Below, in pieces: positions 10,101 to 59,980 of a stretch of 64,000 bases of DNA (its first letter is position 1; the number at the start of each line of letters is the position of its first letter). Position numbers and translations under genes: made by a program. A model generated the notes under the pieces. That model was not told the origin of the DNA, did no database searches, and saw only the letters and a program-made list of their open reading frames with translations. Source of the stretch: Egibacter rhizosphaerae (lineage in GTDB: Bacteria > Actinomycetota > Nitriliruptoria > Euzebyales > Egibacteraceae); assembly GCF_004322855.1 (NCBI RefSeq), contig NZ_CP036402.1, positions 1,488,001-1,552,000 on the forward strand, read 5' to 3'.

Positions 10101-12624
10101 CGTGGACACCGATGCCGCCGCCGTAGATCTCCTCGTCGCTGTCACGACCCATGTCGGCGATGGTCGTGCGATCGCCGTCCTCGTAGCCATCGAACCAGGC
10201 CATCCACTTGGTCTGGGAGCTGTCGTCGAGCGTGATGCGGTCGCCGGGCTCGACGCCGAGCCCCTCGAAGAGCGGGTGGTCCGGCTCGTCGGTCACCTCG
10301 TAGAAGGAGGTGTCCGCGTCCGCGGACGTCGTCGTGCTGTCGGTGCTCTCCGGCTGCCCGGTGACCTCGGAGAGCACCCGCAGCCCGTTGCTCGAGGAGA
10401 AGGCGTGGTCGAGGAACAACAGGCCCGTGCCGACGTCGGCGGTCTCATCCAGGAACGCGTGGAACTCCTCGTCGCTCGGCGTGACGGTGTCGTACCCCCA
10501 GCCGATCGCGAGGTAGTTGTCGGCGTCGACCTCGGTGAGCTCGTTGCCGCGGTAGAAGTCGACGTCGATACCGCGTTCGTCGAAGTAGTCCGCGAACTGG
10601 TCGCCGGGGTCGGAGCTCACCATCGCGACCTCGCCGACCGGGGCCTCCAGCTCGAAATCGGCCGTGGCGACGTCGTCGGCCTCCACCTCGACGGTGACGG
10701 GATCGGGTCCCGACAGCTCCGGGTGGGTGGCCGCCACCTCGTACGTGCCGACCGGCACCTCCGTGATGGAGTACTCCCCGTCGAGACCGGTCTCGTCGCG
10801 GAAGGCCACCGGCACGTCGAGCACCTCGCCGGTGACTCCGGGGATCGGCTCGCCGCTGTCGGCCAGGGTCGCGGTCCCGGCGATCTCCCCGGTGTCCTCG
10901 AGCGGGAGCGCGGCCGTCGCCTGGGTGAACTCCTCGTCGACGACCTCGATCCCCTCGACCGAGACCTCCTCGTAGCCGAACGCGTCGACGTCGAGATCGT
11001 AGGTCCCCAGCTCGAGGCGGACGGTGAACTCGCCGTCCTCGCCGGTGCGAACGACGCGATCGGTCCCGGCGACCTCCACGCGCGCGTCCTCGATCGCCTC
11101 CCCGGCCTCGTCGTCGCTGACCGTGCCGGTGATGCCGCTGTCGATGGCCACTCGGGCGGTGGCCTCGAACGCGTTGATCCGGCCCTCGCCGAACCGGACG
11201 TCCGGCGGCTCGTCGTCGTAACGATCGTCCCAGAACGCGGTGTCGACGAGGGTCCGCTCGAGCTGGTCGACCCCGAGGTCCGGAGCGGCCGAGAGCAGGA
11301 GCGCGGCCGTCCCCGCCGCGTGGGGTGCGGCCATCGACGTCCCGTTGGCGTAGCGGTAGCCACCCCCGGGCGCGGCGGACCACGTGCTGACGCCGGGTGC
11401 GGAGAGGTCGGGCTTGACGTACGAGGCGGGCCACTGGCTCGGCGGGTCGGTCCAGTCGTCCCGGTCGATGGTCGTGCCCGACGAGAAGGCCGCGACATCG
11501 TCGTCCGCGTCGGTCGCCCCGACGCCGACGGCCTCGTGGACCGCCGCGGGACTGCCGATGGTGCCCTCGCCGTCGTTGCCCGTCGCGAAGGCCGGGAACA
11601 CACCGGCGGCGCGCATGTTCCGCGTGGGCTCGATCATCTCGTCCGCCAGGCCGGTTGCGCTGAGCGACATGTTGACGACGTCGGCGGGCTCGCCGGCGGG
11701 ATTGCCGTCGGCGTCGGTGGGATCGATGGCCCACTGCATACCGGCGGCCACCTGCGTGAAGGTCCCCCCACCGCCCGGGATGACGAGACCGTGCATCATG
11801 TCGGATTCGGGTGCGGCCCCGATCGCGACGTCGGACTCGTCGCCCCCGTGGATCGTGCCCGCCACGTGGGTCCCGTGATCCGAGCTGTCGGCGGGCTGGG
11901 ACTCGACGAGCCCACCGTCGCCATCGAACTCCATCCACCCACCCGGATACGTGGGATCGTTGGGGTCGTCGCTGACCATTTTCCCCTCGAGGTCCGGATG
12001 GTCGATGTCGACGCCGGTGTCGAGCGTCGCGACCCGGGCGCCCTGGCCGTCGATGCCGAGCTCCTCCCACACGCGGTCCGCTTCGATGCGGTCGAGGCCC
12101 CACGTGATCTCGTCGTCGACGATCGCCGCGTCCGGCTCCTCACCGCCGGGCTGCGGATCCGGCGCCTCGACCTCGAAGTTCGGCACGAGGCGGTCGACAC
12201 CCTCGAAGGTGGCAAGGGTCGTGGCCTGGCCGAGCTCGGTCAGCTCGACCAGGACCATGTTCTGGATCCAGAAGCGGTTGACGACCTCGAGGTCGCCGAT
12301 CTCCTCGGCACGCTGCTCGATCTGCTCGTCGAGTGCGCCCTGGGCGGCTGCGGCGCTGGCGCGCAACTCGGCGACCACGTCGTCCCGGTCACCGGCGACC
12401 GCCGCGACGTCATCGTCGGCGTCCAGCACGACGAGCGCCTGTACAGGATCTGTCTCGGTCACCCCGGGCTCGGCCAACTCGGCCTCGAGATCGGGGTGGA
12501 TGTCGGCGGCTCCGTCGGGTTCCCCGTGCGCGGTCGCGGCGGGGAGGGCCAGCACCACCGCCGCGAATCCGGCGAGCACCGCGAGGGGGGCCCAAACCCG
12601 AGCGGGCAAGGTCAGTGCGTTCAT
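7108..12624 (-). CDS. Very large secreted S8 serine protease with carboxypeptidase-regulatory-like, CARDB and CWB2 domains
   Basis: The protein is 1838 residues when started at ATG 12624, which has AGGAAGGAA just upstream and gives a clean signal peptide ending ATAHG. An I9-like prodomain is followed by the S8 domain with Asp in ATLDTGVDIDHPDLEG, His in SSDHGTHVAGT and Ser in NGTSMAAPHAAG. After this come carboxypeptidase-regulatory-like repeats (GTVSDDEAGEAIEDA, GTATLADSGEPIPGV), a glutamine-amidotransferase-like segment, CARDB-like beta domains, a low-complexity Gly-Asp-His linker (about 1455-1530) and three CWB2 repeats at the C-terminus. By family it is an exported, wall-anchored protease. 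It is divergent from the regulator at about 13-14 kb, which may control it (inference). Confidence 0.92.
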   Translation of the reverse strand: MNALTLPARVWAPLAVLAGFAAVVLALPAATAHGEPDGAADIHPDLEAELAEPGVTETDPVQALVVLDADDDVAAVAGDRDDVVAELRASAAAAQGALDEQIEQRAEEIGDLEVVNRFWIQNMVLVELTELGQATTLATFEGVDRLVPNFEVEAPDPQPGGEEPDAAIVDDEITWGLDRIEADRVWEELGIDGQGARVATLDTGVDIDHPDLEGKMVSDDPNDPTYPGGWMEFDGDGGLVESQPADSSDHGTHVAGTIHGGDESDVAIGAAPESDMMHGLVIPGGGGTFTQVAAGMQWAIDPTDADGNPAGEPADVVNMSLSATGLADEMIEPTRNMRAAGVFPAFATGNDGEGTIGSPAAVHEAVGVGATDADDDVAAFSSGTTIDRDDWTDPPSQWPASYVKPDLSAPGVSTWSAAPGGGYRYANGTSMAAPHAAGTAALLLSAAPDLGVDQLERTLVDTAFWDDRYDDEPPDVRFGEGRINAFEATARVAIDSGITGTVSDDEAGEAIEDARVEVAGTDRVVRTGEDGEFTVRLELGTYDLDVDAFGYEEVSVEGIEVVDEEFTQATAALPLEDTGEIAGTATLADSGEPIPGVTGEVLDVPVAFRDETGLDGEYSITEVPVGTYEVAATHPELSGPDPVTVEVEADDVATADFELEAPVGEVAMVSSDPGDQFADYFDERGIDVDFYRGNELTEVDADNYLAIGWGYDTVTPSDEEFHAFLDETADVGTGLLFLDHAFSSSNGLRVLSEVTGQPESTDSTTTSADADTSFYEVTDEPDHPLFEGLGVEPGDRITLDDSSQTKWMAWFDGYEDGDRTTIADMGRDSDEEIYGGGIGVHDTGDHRHALLSSHGSSSTRGPEDWTDDASTLFDNTVDWVAREPEEDPPVFVHSGLEVEPDLVMSDEEVEVTVDVTNVGGSEGAHTSELLIDGEVEDEVEVTLAPGETEELDFPVTRSELGTYDVRIGPLTDAFRVRAPSVSLSVLELGGEGLPEPGPLAHADVDVLHDGELIPMGTTDTDGELEFEAPDVVSDVTLIVTRSAAGDGLGEDPEIPEQYLLTEDLTIADDRWLELAPYTSADLDGPTADDRYHFAAVADLNLEPVDESHEAVARLSGEFTEPYGYGFAPGEVVVSPDIYRFQALHELETVPHDYLFESETVTGLEWVGPVDYELSFGGEAHAEIATEAGEGTEFDVAWDVVDGHGIAFDGISESPLEPFADLDRVTDMGAAPEPLQGLDPVNVELGLHDPDGDLLNLGLADWDDRSFTRDLLDYTEEVEPGTYEIELDLDTGPWSGELDTWDGVTFPTRELSTDAIEAGDALDVSVTFEAPGDGDLELHESVAASEADEVGGEEVGLGWPVQDWDGSVPAEYDDAGTWTIDWEDVEEGEFVTIDYTVASSPNLSAGDYHLHGTVTDADADVEQELAGDAHLTVVEPEEGGDAGGGDDDGGHGDDGGHGDGGGHDDGGDDDGGGDDDDGGGDDTGGGDDGGGDYDTDGDRSPGEDDGSDEDAEPGADAGSDPDAAAPEADDVGASVQRLAGEDRIETAVELSADGFEGSHTAVLARADDPADALAGAGLAGVQEGPMLLTHADTLPDRVAEELERLGANRVIVLGGEAAVSDTVVEQVGDLGIEVSRVAGDDRYQTAAAVADEMGSTDEVFFADGHEGWPDALGASALAAETGSPVLLTGGDGLAAATAEAAAGATATIIGGSAVVGESAAAELDRVAGSVSRIAGEDRYETSALLAEETVERGLAAERLLVATGEHWPDGLVAGSAPGVLVLVNGDGSGLAPGTEAWFDRHGEAVSSADLIGGSAVITADTEEAIADRLDPGPLRRLGA

Positions 12625-21968: not shown

Positions 21969-22488
21969 CCCAACCCCCTCTTGTTTCGGCAGCCGGCTCA
22001 TCGCCTGCGCCAGACTCGGGATCAACGCCCGCGCCACGCGTTTCAGCCGGGCTCGTCACTCGGGTTGCCGAGTGACGCTCGCGACCCTCCCCCGACCGCG
22101 GACGATCAACGCCTGGCCGTGACCTCGGGGCGAGGAACCGGCGTATAACCACTTCGGCGCGTAACGACACCTAGACCACGCGTGGTTTCCCAACCCAGAT
22201 TTCGCCGAATCCGGCATACACCTGTCCGAAAGGGCATCCCACGACCCGACAAATCGGTCATACCAGCGATCTAGTAGGGCGCAAGGGTCCACGAGGGCGA
22301 TGCGTCAGAGCCCACGAGCCGTCCCGGACGTCACCACCCCTGTGGCGTCGGGGCGACAAGGCAGCGCGGCACCCCCCGGGCGGCGACAGCCGCTCAGACA
22401 CGAAGCGCCACCCGCACCGGGTGGCCACAACCCCCACCACCCCCACTTCCCCCACAACAACCCCCATGATCCCCAGGAGGTCCCCCAC
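21969..22488. other. 520-base divergent regulatory region
   Basis: There is no gene here. It contains a perfect 10-bp stem with a GTTG loop (22054-22077), a perfect 12-bp palindrome ACCACGCGTGGT (22175-22186) and, next to the right-hand gene, AGGAGG at 22475-22480. The hairpin would lie in the leader of the flavoprotein; the palindrome is operator-like. Confidence 0.5.
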
Positions 22489-52358: not shown

Positions 52359-52913
52359 TCACGAGGCCGCCTCGGTGAGCGCGAGGTACCACCTGCGGAC
52401 CCAGCGGGCGTCGCCGAGGGCGGTGTGCCGCTCGTCGTCGCTGACTGGTTCGACGCCGCAGGCGCGCGCGAGGTCATCCGAGCGCCACGGCAGCGGCAGG
52501 TCCGGCATCGGCTCCCCGCAGTCGGCCCGCCCGTTGAGGTAGCCGACGGCCATCGCCTCCACGTCGATCAAGTGATAGTGCCACGCAGGCGCCTGGCCCC
52601 AGTCGCGCAGGAACCGGTCAAGGAACGCAGCATCGAAGCTCGGCACCGCGCCGACGAGGTGCGCGCCCGCGAGCACCGGCGCGATCCGATCCGCTACGTG
52701 GGGCGGGTACTCCCACGTCCACTCGAAGGTCTCTGTGCGGTGGTAGAAGCCGGTCATGCGCAGCGCGGTAGGGTCCGCGGTCCTCAGTGAGGGCTTCGGT
52801 CGGTAGACGCGCTCGTCGGATTCGCCGTCGACGATGAGGGCGATCTCCCACGGCTCGTGGCGGTCCGGGTCGAGCCCGGTGGTTTCGATGTCGAGGAACA
52901 CGAGGCGGCTCAT
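52359..52913 (-). CDS. Phage DEDDh 3'-5' exonuclease (DnaQ/RNase T-like)
   Basis: The 184-residue protein has ExoI FLDIETTGLD (Asp8, Glu10), ExoII-type GAVPSFDAAFLDR (Asp about 93) and ExoIII-type RHTALGDARW (His about 163, Asp about 168), so all four DEDD acids plus His are present. GAAAGGA precedes ATG 52913. In the leftward early block next to a sliding clamp, it may proofread or process DNA during phage replication. No polymerase is visible in the window. Confidence 0.85.
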   Translation of the reverse strand: MSRLVFLDIETTGLDPDRHEPWEIALIVDGESDERVYRPKPSLRTADPTALRMTGFYHRTETFEWTWEYPPHVADRIAPVLAGAHLVGAVPSFDAAFLDRFLRDWGQAPAWHYHLIDVEAMAVGYLNGRADCGEPMPDLPLPWRSDDLARACGVEPVSDDERHTALGDARWVRRWYLALTEAAS

Positions 52914-53477: not shown

Positions 53478-54575
53478 CTATACGCGGACCGGCATCAACA
53501 AGTACCCGAACTCATCACCCCCCTCCGCGTCTCGGATCACTGCGGGCTTCACCTCGTCGCGAAGTTCGACGGTCACCCGGTCTCCGTCGAGCATCCCGAG
53601 CCCACCGGTGAGGTAGCGCGGGTTGAACGCGATCCGTTCGGGGGGCTCGCCGCCTGTCTCGACTGCGACCGATTCGCTGGCCTCGCCGGTCTCGCCCGTG
53701 CCGCCCTCAACCGTGAGTCGGCCGCTGTCGATCGCGAGGACGACGGGCTGCGTTCCGGTGAGCGAGCCGATCCGGTCGACGACCTTGCGCAGTCGCTGGC
53801 GGTCGACGGTGACCGCGCCCTCGGTCTTGTCGGGCCAGAACTGCGGGTAGTCGGGGAACTTGCCGACGATGGTGCGCGAGTGCCACGTGAGCGTGAGTCG
53901 GCCGGTCGCCCCGTGGAACCACGCAGCCTGCAGTCCCGCGCCGGGATTGTCGGCCCCCGGGGCGGCGGTCAGCGTCTTGACCTTCGACTTGCGGACCGCG
54001 TCGAGCGCGCGGCTCGGCACGAGGCGGTGCAGGTGCGACGAGGTGGCGGCCCACGCGAGCCGGTAGCTGTCGGTCGCCACGATCCCGTCGTCACCGAACC
54101 ACACCCCGGTGAGAACCGGCCGCGCGTCGTCCGAGCTGGCGGTCTCGACCATCGCCGCGAACCATGCGAGGTGGTCCGAGTGGTCGCGCCAGTCGACCCC
54201 GTCGGGCTGCGGCAGCGGCGGGTAGTCGTCGGCCGGCATCGTCCGCAGCGACACGTCCGCGTCGCCCGAGACGATGCGGAGCCGGTCGGGGTCGCCGTTG
54301 ACGTGCAGCGTCACCGTGTCGCCGTCAACTTTGCGCGCGATCTTGTCGAGCGCGGCGAACGGCACGAGCGCGTGGCCGTCGTCGAGCGCGTCGGCAGTGT
54401 CGACGCGCGCCCACGTGGTGAGTTCGAGGTCGGTTGTGGCGAGCGTGACGCCGTCGATGCTGTCGACGGTGACGCGGACCCCGGAAAGTGCGGGTAGGTT
54501 TGCGCGGTTGCCGAGGCTGCGCTTGGTTTCGGCGAGCGCGGTTTTCAGGTCGCGCGTGGCGAGTGTGGCTTTCAT
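53478..54575 (-). CDS. dnaN: Phage-borne DNA polymerase III beta sliding clamp homologue
   Basis: The 365-residue protein matches the three-domain DnaN length. Recognisable segments are an N-terminal LPALSGVRV, the domain-1 strand ATTDLELTTWARV, TGVWFGDDGIVATDSYRLAWA (the conserved clamp TDSYRLA), FNPRYLTGGL, and the C-terminal end YLLMPVRV, equivalent to YL(V/I)MPM(R/K)L. It would encircle DNA and tether a polymerase. Host dnaN normally sits beside dnaA and gyrB. Here the gene is inside the phage early block, behind the shared GGAGGGATCAGCGATG leader, so it is a phage version that could recruit or replace host replication. Confidence 0.9.
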   Translation of the reverse strand: MKATLATRDLKTALAETKRSLGNRANLPALSGVRVTVDSIDGVTLATTDLELTTWARVDTADALDDGHALVPFAALDKIARKVDGDTVTLHVNGDPDRLRIVSGDADVSLRTMPADDYPPLPQPDGVDWRDHSDHLAWFAAMVETASSDDARPVLTGVWFGDDGIVATDSYRLAWAATSSHLHRLVPSRALDAVRKSKVKTLTAAPGADNPGAGLQAAWFHGATGRLTLTWHSRTIVGKFPDYPQFWPDKTEGAVTVDRQRLRKVVDRIGSLTGTQPVVLAIDSGRLTVEGGTGETGEASESVAVETGGEPPERIAFNPRYLTGGLGMLDGDRVTVELRDEVKPAVIRDAEGGDEFGYLLMPVRV

Positions 54576-56598: not shown

Positions 56599-56647
56599 CG
56601 CCAATCCCTCCCTAGCTCCACAAGGCCAACCTGTACCGTGCGACCGC

Positions 56648-56676
56648 ATCGTAACCCCCGAGCGCAACAGGGTCAA
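56648..56676 (-). promoter_or_regulatory. Early promoter PL2 (sigma-70 type)
   Basis: On the minus strand TTGACC (56671-56676) and TACGAT (56648-56653) are separated by 17 bases. The -35 is within TAACAGGTTGAC (56672-56683), identical to PL1. It should drive the leftward small-gene block. Confidence 0.7.
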
Positions 56677-56695
56677 CCTGTTACCGGCACGGGGT

Positions 56696-57293
56696 GCACC
56701 CACCGCACACCCAAACCCAACCAACCCAACCACCCCCACCCACCAACCACAACCAGTCAAACCTGACAGCCATCGTCGGCGAGCGTGAGCGGATAGGGGG
56801 TGGGGGGTTGCTCATCGAGGCAACCGGCCGATGTGCCGACCCCCCACCCCCCGCTCACGCCCTGACTGTGGGGTTGTGGGTGTGGTGGACGGTGGGGGTT
56901 GTGGTGGTGTTGTGGGGGTCACTAGGCGGGTGGCTGGTGGGTTGGGGGGGGTGTTGTTGGGGGTGTGTGCTGGGGTTTTGGGGTGGGTGGGGTTCGGCGG
57001 TTGGCCCTACGTCCCCGCCGCCCGCCCGCCGGTCCGTTTTTTCGCAGCGATCTCCTGCGTGGTGTCTTCGCGCCCGGGGCTTCTGGTATGGCGCGTGGTT
57101 TTGTGCCCCCCGTTCTGAGCCCTAAAGGATCGCAGGCCGTTCTTTGTCTCACGCTAGGGGCGTCACTCCGACCTTGAGGCCCCCCGACTCGCCGTAGCCC
57201 GCTGCGCTCGTCCACCTGCTGTGGGTGCTGTCCAGCGGTACGCGTGCGGGTCTGGGGGCCGTGGCTTGTCTCTTAGCTCACAGTTCCGGCCGG
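56696..57293. other. Non-coding strand-asymmetric quasi-palindrome with G-quadruplex motifs
   Basis: No convincing gene lies between 56599 and 57293. The top strand is almost only C and A at 56696-56760, then has an inverted repeat (GTGAGCGG at 56785-56792, ending CCGCTCAC at 56851-56858, with G- and C-runs inside). It is then almost only G and T at 56866-56998. The two flanks are roughly reverse complements. A canonical four-tract G-quadruplex motif is at 56972-56992. It is a candidate phage origin or regulatory centre. Confidence 0.5.
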
Positions 57294-57593
57294 TTACGTT
57301 TCCCTAGCGGGCTGCCATCGGTTGCCCCGCTCCTCGCCGGGACGCGCGCCGGCAGCAGCGCGCTGTTTCGGGCATCGCGCGTGTTCCCAGCGGTAGCCGG
57401 GTTCGCTGATGCCTGAGCCTTGGATGAGTTGCCCGGTTGCGATGCGGTGTTCGCACGCGGGGCAGGCGCCCGGGTGTCGTGCTCGGGTGACGCCGGGCGC
57501 GTATTCGAGGTCGCGGGAGGGCGCGTAGGCAGGTGAGCCGCGTCGGCCGCGTTCGCGGCTGCGCGCCTTCTCCCAGTCGAGCCCCTTCGCCAT
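57294..57593 (-). CDS. Phage zinc-finger-like small protein
   Basis: The 99-residue basic protein has a Cys/His module HPGACPACEHRIATGQLIQG then YRWEHARCPKQ (CxxC...HxxC), resembling treble-clef or HNH-associated zinc modules found in actinophage proteins. No nuclease His-Asn-His core is visible. ATG 57593 has a weak ribosome site. It probably belongs to a three-gene leftward unit with the next two. Confidence 0.6.
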   Translation of the reverse strand: MAKGLDWEKARSRERGRRGSPAYAPSRDLEYAPGVTRARHPGACPACEHRIATGQLIQGSGISEPGYRWEHARCPKQRAAAGARPGEERGNRWQPARET

Positions 57594-57603
57594 CGTGGAG
57601 CGC

Positions 57604-57798
57604 CTAGCCGCGCTTGCCGCGCCGGTAGTTGCCGCGGCTGGGCTGTCGCCTGCGCGCCCCACCCGAGTTCGTGCCGCTGCGTTGGTTGCGGCGCTGGCGG
57701 CGCGGCGGGTTGGGCTGGAACGTGTCGTAGAAGCCGCGCCCGTCGGTGCGTGGCGTGGGCGCGGCTGCGGGCGGCTGGTCGGCGTAGTGGCTAGGCAC
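57604..57798 (-). CDS. Phage small basic protein
   Basis: The 64-residue protein is Arg/Gly/Pro-rich, ending in several RG repeats (GARRRQPSRGNYRRGKRG), consistent with nucleic-acid binding and disorder. GTG 57798 overlaps the upstream gene by 8 bases. No known family. Confidence 0.5.
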   Translation of the reverse strand: MPSHYADQPPAAAPTPRTDGRGFYDTFQPNPPRRQRRNQRSGTNSGGARRRQPSRGNYRRGKRG

Positions 57799-57973
57799 GA
57801 GTCGCCTCCTCCGCGGTGGGTTGGGGGATGCGGTCGTCGAACGCGAAGAAGATCCAGATGGCGATGGCGAGGCTGGTGGGCCAGCCGATGTAGCTCGCGA
57901 GCCACGGTGCGAGGGCGGTGAGGGTGAGCACGCTGGCGGCTCGGGAGACTCGTTCGGTCGCCTTGTCGTTCAC
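57791..57973 (-). CDS. Phage small membrane protein
   Basis: The 60-residue protein has one or two short hydrophobic helices (LTLTALAPWLASYIGW and LAIAIWIFFAF) and a charged N-terminus. The size would suit a holin or superinfection-exclusion protein, but its position outside a lysis cassette leaves this open. GTG 57973 follows AAGGAGGGG. Confidence 0.6.
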   Translation of the reverse strand: MNDKATERVSRAASVLTLTALAPWLASYIGWPTSLAIAIWIFFAFDDRIPQPTAEEATRA

Positions 57974-58054
57974 AGCCCCTCCTTGTGGTCCCGTCGTCTG
58001 GGGGGCACGAGGGTGGCACAGGCTCTGGTTGTGGTCAACGACCTCGGCCATAAG

Positions 58055-58090
58055 AAAGCCCCCAGGGCCGGCGGGGACCCTGGGGGCTTT
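58055..58090. terminator. Strong stem-loop between divergent phage units
   Basis: A perfect 13-bp stem (58055-58067 with 58078-58090) with a 10-base loop ends in a short T-run on either strand (TTTCTTATG leftward). It sits upstream of both the leftward membrane-protein gene and the rightward terminase, where no annotated gene needs ending. Confidence 0.7.
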
Positions 58091-58155
58091 CACCCCAAGC
58101 GACGTCACGCACCCGAAGGGCCGTTGCGACGCGTGGGAGTGTGACAGGGCTGCGC

Positions 58156-58195: not shown

Positions 58196-59980
58196 ATGAG
58201 CGCGACCGACAACCTCACGCCGCACGCGCGGAACACGGCGCGGATCTCTCAGGCGGCGGAGAAACGCAAGGCCGACTGGCTGCAGTTCCGCCACGCCGGC
58301 CACACGGTGGCGGGCGCGTGCCAGGAGGTCGGTGTCGCGCTGAACACGTATCAGCGGTGGCGTCAGCGCGACCCGGAGTTCGCGGCGCGCGCCGACCTGG
58401 CGGGGCAGCGGGCGCGCGGCGACGCGTCCGGGTTCAACGGGACGTTGCAGGACTTCGAGCGCGCGTTCATCCCGAGCCCGGAGGGCGGACGGGTCGAGCA
58501 GAGTTTCTACACCGCGGCGATCCATCGCGCGCTTGAGGGCACGCGCGAGGGCGAGATCACGCTGGTGTTGTTGCCGCCGGGCGCTCGGAAGACGACGACG
58601 TTGGAGAACTGGGCGGTCGGCAAGCTCGCGACCGACCCGAATCATCGCATCCTGAACATCTCCAAGAGCCTCGACCACGCGAAGAAGTCGGTCGGGCGGA
58701 TGCAGGCGCTGCTCACCGACACGAGTTTGACGGCGGAGATGATCGCGAGGTTCGGCCCGTTCAAGGAGTACGGGCAGGAGAAGCGCGGCAAGCCGTGGGC
58801 GCAGGACCATTTCACGGTCGCCACGTCGACGCTGTCGCACCGCGACTATTCGATGACCGCGCGCGGGTGGACGTCGCAGATCTACGGGTCGCGTGCGGAC
58901 ACGATCATCATCGACGACCCGCAGACGATCGACGACGTCGACCAGACCGAGAAGAAGCTCGACAAGCTCCGCCTCGACATCTTCACTCGCCGGCCCGGTC
59001 CGGGTCGCGGGCGCGTGGTGATCTTGGGAACGCGCCTCGACCACGGCGACCTGTACGAGCGACTGATCGAGGAGGACGTCGTCGACCACTACCTCAAGTT
59101 CCCGGTGGTCGACGGCGACGGCGAGCCGGTCGACCCGGTGGTGTTCCCCAAGGAGCATCTGCCGAAGGTGCGCAAGCAGGTCGGCGAGCAGTCGTGGGCG
59201 GCGGCGTACATGATGCGCCCGAAGCTCGGCGAGAACGCGACGTTCCCCAGCGACGCGCTCGACGAGTGCAAGCAGCCGGCGATGGCGGCGGGCCCGCTGG
59301 CTGAGCACGAGCAGGCCGCGCCGGTGGTGATCGGCGTCGACCCGAACTTGGGGGCGGGCTACACGAGCTTGTGCGCGCTGGCCTATTGGCCGGATCGCGC
59401 GCGCGTGCTCGACAGTCACGAGTGGTACGGGCTGTCGCGCACCGAGGACATTCTCGACCGGTTGGAGCGGTGGGCGAGCGCGTATCGGCCGGTCGATGTG
59501 CGCATCGAGATCAACGCGTTCCAGCGGGGGTTGCAGAAGGACGAGCGGTTGCGCGCGCTCGCGCGCGAGTACGGGTTCTCGATTCGTGAGCACACGACCG
59601 ACAAGAAGAAGGTCTCCCACGACCTCGAACAGCTCGGCATCGCGACGATGGCGCGCAGCTTTTTGAAACGCGAGATCGAGGTCCCGTGGCACCGCGACGG
59701 CGAGTGCGACGTCGCGTCGTGCTCGGCGTGCCACGAGCTTCCCGATTCGCGCGAGGTCGGGTGGACGCGGCGGCGCATGGAGCCGCTGGTGCAGGAACTT
59801 GAGGCGTGGCGGCCGGTGCGCGGCTCGCGGTTGAAGCAGGACCGCGTCATGTCGTTGTGGATCGCATGGATCAGGTGGCAGCAGATGCGCCCGACCGCGC
59901 CGTCCGACGATTCGCAGTGGGACCGGCCGACCGGCTGGAAGCCGGTGGCGTACACGCCGTTGACTTCGGGGAGGCGCTGA
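58196..59980 (+). CDS. Phage terminase large subunit with N-terminal helix-turn-helix
   Basis: The 594-residue protein starts with an HTH-like region (about 20-62, HTVAGACQEVGVALNTYQRW) that resembles a small-terminase DNA-binding domain. The ATPase follows, with a P-loop-like LLPPGARKTTT (about 125) and Walker B ADTIIIDDPQ (about 234-242). The RNase-H-like nuclease has acidic residues in VVIGVDPNLGAGYT (about 379) and near VDVRIEINAFQRG. It packages DNA into the capsid. No separate small subunit is seen nearby, so the HTH may take that role. Its stop shares one base with the portal start (TGATG). Confidence 0.87.
   Translation: MSATDNLTPHARNTARISQAAEKRKADWLQFRHAGHTVAGACQEVGVALNTYQRWRQRDPEFAARADLAGQRARGDASGFNGTLQDFERAFIPSPEGGRVEQSFYTAAIHRALEGTREGEITLVLLPPGARKTTTLENWAVGKLATDPNHRILNISKSLDHAKKSVGRMQALLTDTSLTAEMIARFGPFKEYGQEKRGKPWAQDHFTVATSTLSHRDYSMTARGWTSQIYGSRADTIIIDDPQTIDDVDQTEKKLDKLRLDIFTRRPGPGRGRVVILGTRLDHGDLYERLIEEDVVDHYLKFPVVDGDGEPVDPVVFPKEHLPKVRKQVGEQSWAAAYMMRPKLGENATFPSDALDECKQPAMAAGPLAEHEQAAPVVIGVDPNLGAGYTSLCALAYWPDRARVLDSHEWYGLSRTEDILDRLERWASAYRPVDVRIEINAFQRGLQKDERLRALAREYGFSIREHTTDKKKVSHDLEQLGIATMARSFLKREIEVPWHRDGECDVASCSACHELPDSREVGWTRRRMEPLVQELEAWRPVRGSRLKQDRVMSLWIAWIRWQQMRPTAPSDDSQWDRPTGWKPVAYTPLTSGRR

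Follow-up and report, generated by a model that had tools for sequence, protein, structure and literature searches.

A noncoding element in a prophage of Egibacter rhizosphaerae combines a central hairpin with a C/A-rich arm on its left and a G/T-rich arm on its right, and in several lineages of distant phages an element of this architecture, though not of this sequence, occupies the equivalent position. The hairpin is strong, and since unrelated-looking sequences of this shape are found at that position in distant phages, the element is probably a phage control site (start or end point) for copying or packaging phage DNA. We infer, with a probability of roughly 0.45, that it is a cis-acting site for starting the copying of phage DNA or forming genome ends, set in noncoding DNA where the early and late genes meet. 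The window analyzed here is a 64,000-nucleotide stretch of the genome (contig NZ_CP036402.1, positions 1,488,001 to 1,552,000), and coordinates are counted from its first letter, including those beyond its right end (Table 1).

Table 1. Features of the prophage element, its surroundings and the related phage loci (window coordinates unless a locus is named)
Feature	Coordinates	Strand	Basis or remark
Leftward phage genes	52359..56598	-	small ORFs, LPD29-domain protein, DnaN-like clamp, DnaQ-like exonuclease
Operator-like palindrome ACAAGGCCAACCTGT	56620..56634		just downstream of PL2
Promoter-like TTGACC-N17-TACGAT (PL2)	56648..56676	-	σ70-like, 9/12 match; heads the leftward genes
Operator-like palindrome ACAGGGTCAACCTGT	56667..56681		overlaps the PL2 -35 box
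Left arm, C/A	56697..56755	+	58/59 bases A or C on the top strand; outward minus strand G/T
Canonical G-quadruplex motif, outward strand of left arm	56710..56741	-	motif scan
Central quasi-palindrome, ~78 bases, between the arms	56784..56859		inverted repeat and RNA folding
Outer stem of hairpin, CGTGAGCG with CGCTCACG	56784-56791 with 56852-56859		8 bp
Inner stem of hairpin, GGGGGTGGGGGGT with ACCCCCCACCCCC	56796-56808 with 56839-56851		13 bp, perfect, G/C runs
Right arm, G/T	56867..57004	+	127/138 bases G or T on the top strand
Canonical G3+ G-quadruplex motifs, right arm	56939-56963 and 56972-56992	+	motif scan
Fourth canonical G3+ G-quadruplex motif	57005-57027	-	motif scan
Three small leftward genes right of the element	57294..57973	-	membrane-type ORF, 64-aa ORF, phrog_1581-like ORF (57294-57593); ribosome-binding sites seen in the sequence
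Terminator-like hairpin, T runs on both sides	58053..58091		strong; between the small leftward genes and terminase
Terminase large subunit, first late gene	58196..59980	+	phrog_38, 2.6e-50; query for relatives
Loci with arm pairs			L185/L188, L189, L209, L211/L212, L214, L217/L218, L220
Copies of conserved noncoding element	L181:1306-1430, L189:1316-1440, L217:957-1101, L209:3322-3413, L163:3171-3291		among others

On the top strand, the left arm contains 22 A, 36 C, 1 G and 0 T, and the right arm 84 G, 43 T, 8 C and 3 A. The sequence-only reading of this DNA had described a strand-asymmetric quasi-palindrome here, and the asymmetry proved real: the segment score is 55 for the left arm and 94 for the right, whereas 20 first-order shuffles of 124 kb never exceeded 21, and both arms are the most extreme runs of their kind in the 4.64 Mb genome. 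When this single-contig genome was scanned on both strands for 40-nt A/C runs with at most two mismatches, near-pure runs were found in the two arms, in one CAA repeat and at window position 22425, and nowhere else. The run at 22425-22466, A/C-pure over 42 nt, lies outside the prophage and directly 5' of a start codon (GTGGTTGCTCTC...). The same reading had taken the flanks for approximate reverse complements, which holds for their composition but not for their base order, because shuffling each arm with its dinucleotide content preserved gave equally good alignments 15-25% of the time; a true inverted duplication as the origin of the arms is ruled out on the same ground. As had also been stated, nothing coding explains the element: open reading frames running through it gave no PHROG match and a single Pfam match below the cut-off.

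Between the arms, the two stems of the quasi-palindrome are separated by a 4-nt bulge (GATA) and enclose a partly paired loop of 30 nt. The predicted RNA minimum free energy is -62 to -63 kcal/mol, with a z-score of about -6.7 on either strand, and the hairpin ranks 1/200 among the surrounding 120-nt windows. Four of the 14 canonical G3+ G-quadruplex (G4) motifs in 124 kb fall at the element; besides the one at 56972-56992 pointed out in the earlier reading, the scan returned three more, two of them on the minus strand. An Rfam search of the element region gave no real match, the miRNA matches being chance pairing with the long hairpin, and no iterons were found at the element.

The prophage extends from ~52.3 to 97.4 kb and contains the element. 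Its integrase gene (96174-97364) has two HTH regulators beside it, an early operon runs leftward from 95 to 85 kb, and the late genes run rightward from the terminase gene to an endolysin gene at 85170. The element is noncoding and lies between leftward dnaQ/dnaN-type genes and these rightward late genes. Since three small leftward genes and a terminator-like hairpin come before terminase, it is placed between two leftward gene groups, and transcription in the prophage diverges at ~57.98-58.19 kb, not exactly at the element. A search with the small gene at 57294 gave no phage match. The prophage encodes DnaN-like and DnaQ-like proteins (53478-54575 and 52359-52913, respectively), and no DNA polymerase was recognised among the prophage proteins searched; together these suggest, judging by protein sequence, that the prophage may reuse the host replicase.

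On its left, the element adjoins the early promoter PL2, in agreement with the sequence-only reading, and PL2 is the sole σ70-like site in 7.7 kb, where 0.2 would be expected. Two operator-like palindromes overlap or closely follow it, and similar ones (ACAGGGNNNACCTGT type) flank repressor genes 39 kb away, at 95486 and 95588. The latter (L005:11486-11500 and 11588-11602) lie between the genes of the two HTH regulators, and one further palindrome of this type (L005:8361-8375) is in the early operon. These putative operators likely mark a prophage repressor regulon.

The cumulative GC skew of the prophage has its minimum at 56774, between the arms, and its maximum at 85461, close to where the late operon ends, so that the inflection named earlier as a check on an origin is present. 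With the element masked (56690-57005), the GC-skew minimum falls at 57216, still in the same gap, and the keto minimum shifts to the left end of the prophage. This outcome indicates that the inflection belongs to the early/late boundary and is sharpened by the arms. Two near-complete relatives, G429 and G430, have their GC-skew minimum at most 20 bp from the switch between the arms (21279 vs 21269/21288 and 5373 vs 5373/5381, respectively). The minimum is therefore at the site in all three genomes, a match confounded with gene direction; as skew also tracks gene direction, the minimum alone is no proof of an origin. In the divergent early operon of G430, one protein reads as a single-strand DNA-binding protein on sequence inspection alone.

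The element had no DNA homologue in 50,697 phage records, and searches with the terminase, clamp or portal protein alone gave no close relatives. Among host genomes of the same class, the terminase was found in its own genome only, and the A/C runs seen in other genomes of the class were discarded, being mostly contig-end artefacts or single runs. Distant relatives were reached in IMG/VR with a terminase alignment, and loci were picked by terminase only, blind to the arms. With an arm pair defined as both arms within 350 bp, and with arm thresholds set after the window had been seen, 15 pairs with the C/A arm on the left and the G/T arm on the right were found in the 84 closer terminase loci (784 kb), vs 0 of the opposite polarity. 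All 15 lie upstream of terminase and come from ten loci, representing about five independent lineages of distant phages with 30-40% terminase identity. No arm pair was found in 42 farther terminase relatives or in 400 kb of host chromosome. As a reverse-complemented locus would give the same test result, the observed polarity implies G/T-rich outward strands on both sides. Conservation in related phages, on which the earlier proposal had been made to depend, is thus seen in the architecture and not in the sequence.

In these relatives, the C/A arm comes first upstream of terminase and the G/T arm follows, usually with a hairpin in between; genes on the left of the switch run leftward and terminase runs rightward. 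The hairpin at the switch is in the top few percent or better of its surroundings in 6/8 cases, the window included (L185, 1/110; L217, 2/111; L211, 2/115; L209, 4/152; L220, 9/174); stems are of mixed sequence in L185 and L220, and the switch hairpins of L189 and L214 are weak. Many relatives have no arms, for example L074, L079-L081, G423 and G428, so the trait is recurrent and not universal. The hubs of L211/L212 and of L217/L218 are identical (0 differences) across separate metagenome assemblies; as, in addition, the host genome is one contig, we judged a sequencing artefact unlikely. L212 has an imperfect inverted repeat of ~800 bp (72%) around its switch region, at about -4130 to -3326 vs -3001 to -2229 from terminase. 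The early/late gap of a related Actinomycetota MAG contig (L073:6725-6886) has an inverted repeat with 22-nt arms (86%) and several CCGAACCG-type repeats, and no A/C and G/T arms.

Other noncoding features were noticed in the relatives. In marine and freshwater phages, a conserved element of ~120 nt (alignment A5, model R1) lies 5' of terminase, to the right of the G/T arm, its consensus ending in GCCCCTCTGACGGGCGAAC. An Rfam scan of the relatives' loci gave no family for it, and it is a candidate new phage RNA family. A resemblance through TCACTCCGACCTTGAGG had hinted at this leader RNA in the window, and failed the covariance-model test. A core GATGTGCC common to the window and relatives is suggestive only, the window having no following -10 box, and the fuller pattern GATGTGCCGACCC..CACCCCC is absent from all viral contigs searched. 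An 82-nt tmRNA match (72 bits) on the phage contig L185 (1777-1858, minus strand), in which 14 nt replace 306 model positions, reads as a tRNA-like domain without the message part. Predicted Pistol ribozymes lie near a tRNA gene in two related phage contigs (L209:245-310 and L214:2497-2559, both minus strand).

For the prophage element, we propose that the palindrome, which could extrude as a cruciform or hairpin, would form the recognition or structural core, and that the outward G/T strands on both sides would keep the flanks open or mark them. These strands could fold into G4s, and would be displaced by forks and by transcription leaving the centre. We favour a bidirectional replication start, given that the switch carries the skew minimum in three genomes, with a terminus of the short-direct-terminal-repeat type nearby as a close second; start and terminus could coincide. 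Like skew-defined bidirectional origins of phages and bacteria, the element shows a cumulative GC-skew minimum, G/T-rich outward strands and adjacent early replication-type genes. Unlike them, it has no DnaA boxes, iterons, AT-richness or recognised initiator gene, and DnaA-like boxes are not enriched upstream of terminase in the relatives either. The earlier idea of a phage origin or switch region is backed in part, by the skew minimum and the recurring architecture but not by DnaA-like boxes. The published origin of phage ICP1 was placed by read coverage (PMC7145576). Further points against the proposed function are the small leftward genes between the element and terminase, the keto minimum that moves upon masking, the many relatives without arms and the weak hairpins of L189 and L214.

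It is unlikely, although several observations point that way, that the element is in the first place part of a genome terminus, within the stretch in which concatemers are cleaved and terminal repeats arise, and that its hairpin plays the part assigned to the hairpin in the maturation model of T7/T3. In that model, hairpin-primed duplication of the terminal repeat accompanies concatemer maturation. A palindrome near the genome terminus beside packaging genes would be common to both, but the prophage is not a T7 relative and its hairpin is predicted from sequence. The closer comparison is with the Beephvirinae, Streptomyces podophages whose late genes (terminase, portal, giant internal protein) are colinear with those of the prophage (22-34% identity). 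In FlowerPower and Stella, exact direct terminal repeats (253 and 263 bp) lie between leftward early genes and terminase, the same place as the prophage element, in which three small leftward genes intervene. The sole strong pure A/C run of FlowerPower (31 nt) falls inside its terminal repeat; however, FlowerPower has no G/T arm or outstanding hairpin there, neither phage shows an A/C arm and a G/T arm paired around a hairpin, and their terminases are only ~25% identical to that of the prophage, which is known from its integrated form only. Further, 8/37 relatives' contigs longer than 25 kb end less than 1 kb upstream of terminase (1.0 expected, p ~1e-5). The excess is suggestive, but hard-to-assemble sequence can also break contigs, and these ends are 200-640 bp from terminase on its upstream side, a position that would fall right of the element in the window. 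Overlapping record ends in IMG/VR (87 and 123-127 bp) resemble assembler k-mers.

The element could also be a divergent transcription hub, its G/T arms serving as untranslated C-poor (G/U-rich) leaders, or as R-loop-prone non-template strands, of early leftward and late rightward transcripts. The outward G/T polarity, which has no exception, and the gene order of the relatives, which diverges from the switch, fit this idea, as do a promoter-like GGGGGGATGTGCC..CCCTTGG..TATNAG and the conserved leader RNA in or right of the relatives' G/T arm. We consider it distinctly unlikely, however: in the window, transcription from PL2 would begin on the far (left) side of the left arm and run away from it, the right arm leads to leftward genes and the terminator-like hairpin and only then to terminase, and leader model R1 has no match in 14 kb around the prophage element at E values up to 1.

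Quite improbable is a bidirectional Rho-type insulator, in which RNA entering from either side would be C/A-rich, G-poor and rut-like, followed by the hairpin, so that transcription is stopped both ways. Rho utilization (rut) sites such as lambda tR1 consist of C-rich, G-poor RNA followed by a hairpin. Read inward, the arms likewise give a C-rich, G-poor stretch of ~60-130 nt before the stop: RNA transcribed leftward from the small genes would be C/A-rich between 57004 and 56867 before reaching the hairpin, and rightward RNA would be C/A-rich over 56697-56755. The prophage element does sit between two leftward gene groups, and a transcript could enter it from the right (57294-57973, minus strand). 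In the relatives, however, the flanking genes run away from the switch, which means that no transcript enters. Unlike rut sites, the element is symmetric in both directions, and 135 three-prime ends of host genes show no C/A bias. The least probable account takes the bias as an unselected by-product of strand-specific deamination (C to T, A to G) on a persistently single-stranded outward strand, in line with a composition that is retained while sequence is not and with an exchange pattern in the arms of related hubs close to the composition expectation, but at odds with the strong hairpins of mixed-sequence stem at the switch in several lineages and with the 9/14 G-T differences (small numbers) in arm 1 of L209/L214.

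Returning to a replication start or genome end, it is possible, if on balance doubtful, that the element represents an undescribed type of phage control site defined by its architecture and not by its sequence, namely a hairpin with C/A and G/T arms, whose outward strands are both G/T-only, located where early and late genes meet in a broad actinophage-like lineage. A cis-acting site that keeps its shape and strand bias, and not its sequence, would escape every homology search. With such a site, it would be simple to locate where replication starts, or where the genome ends, in thousands of uncultured phages, and it becomes testable whether phage DNA replication or end formation requires the outward G/T strands and the central hairpin.
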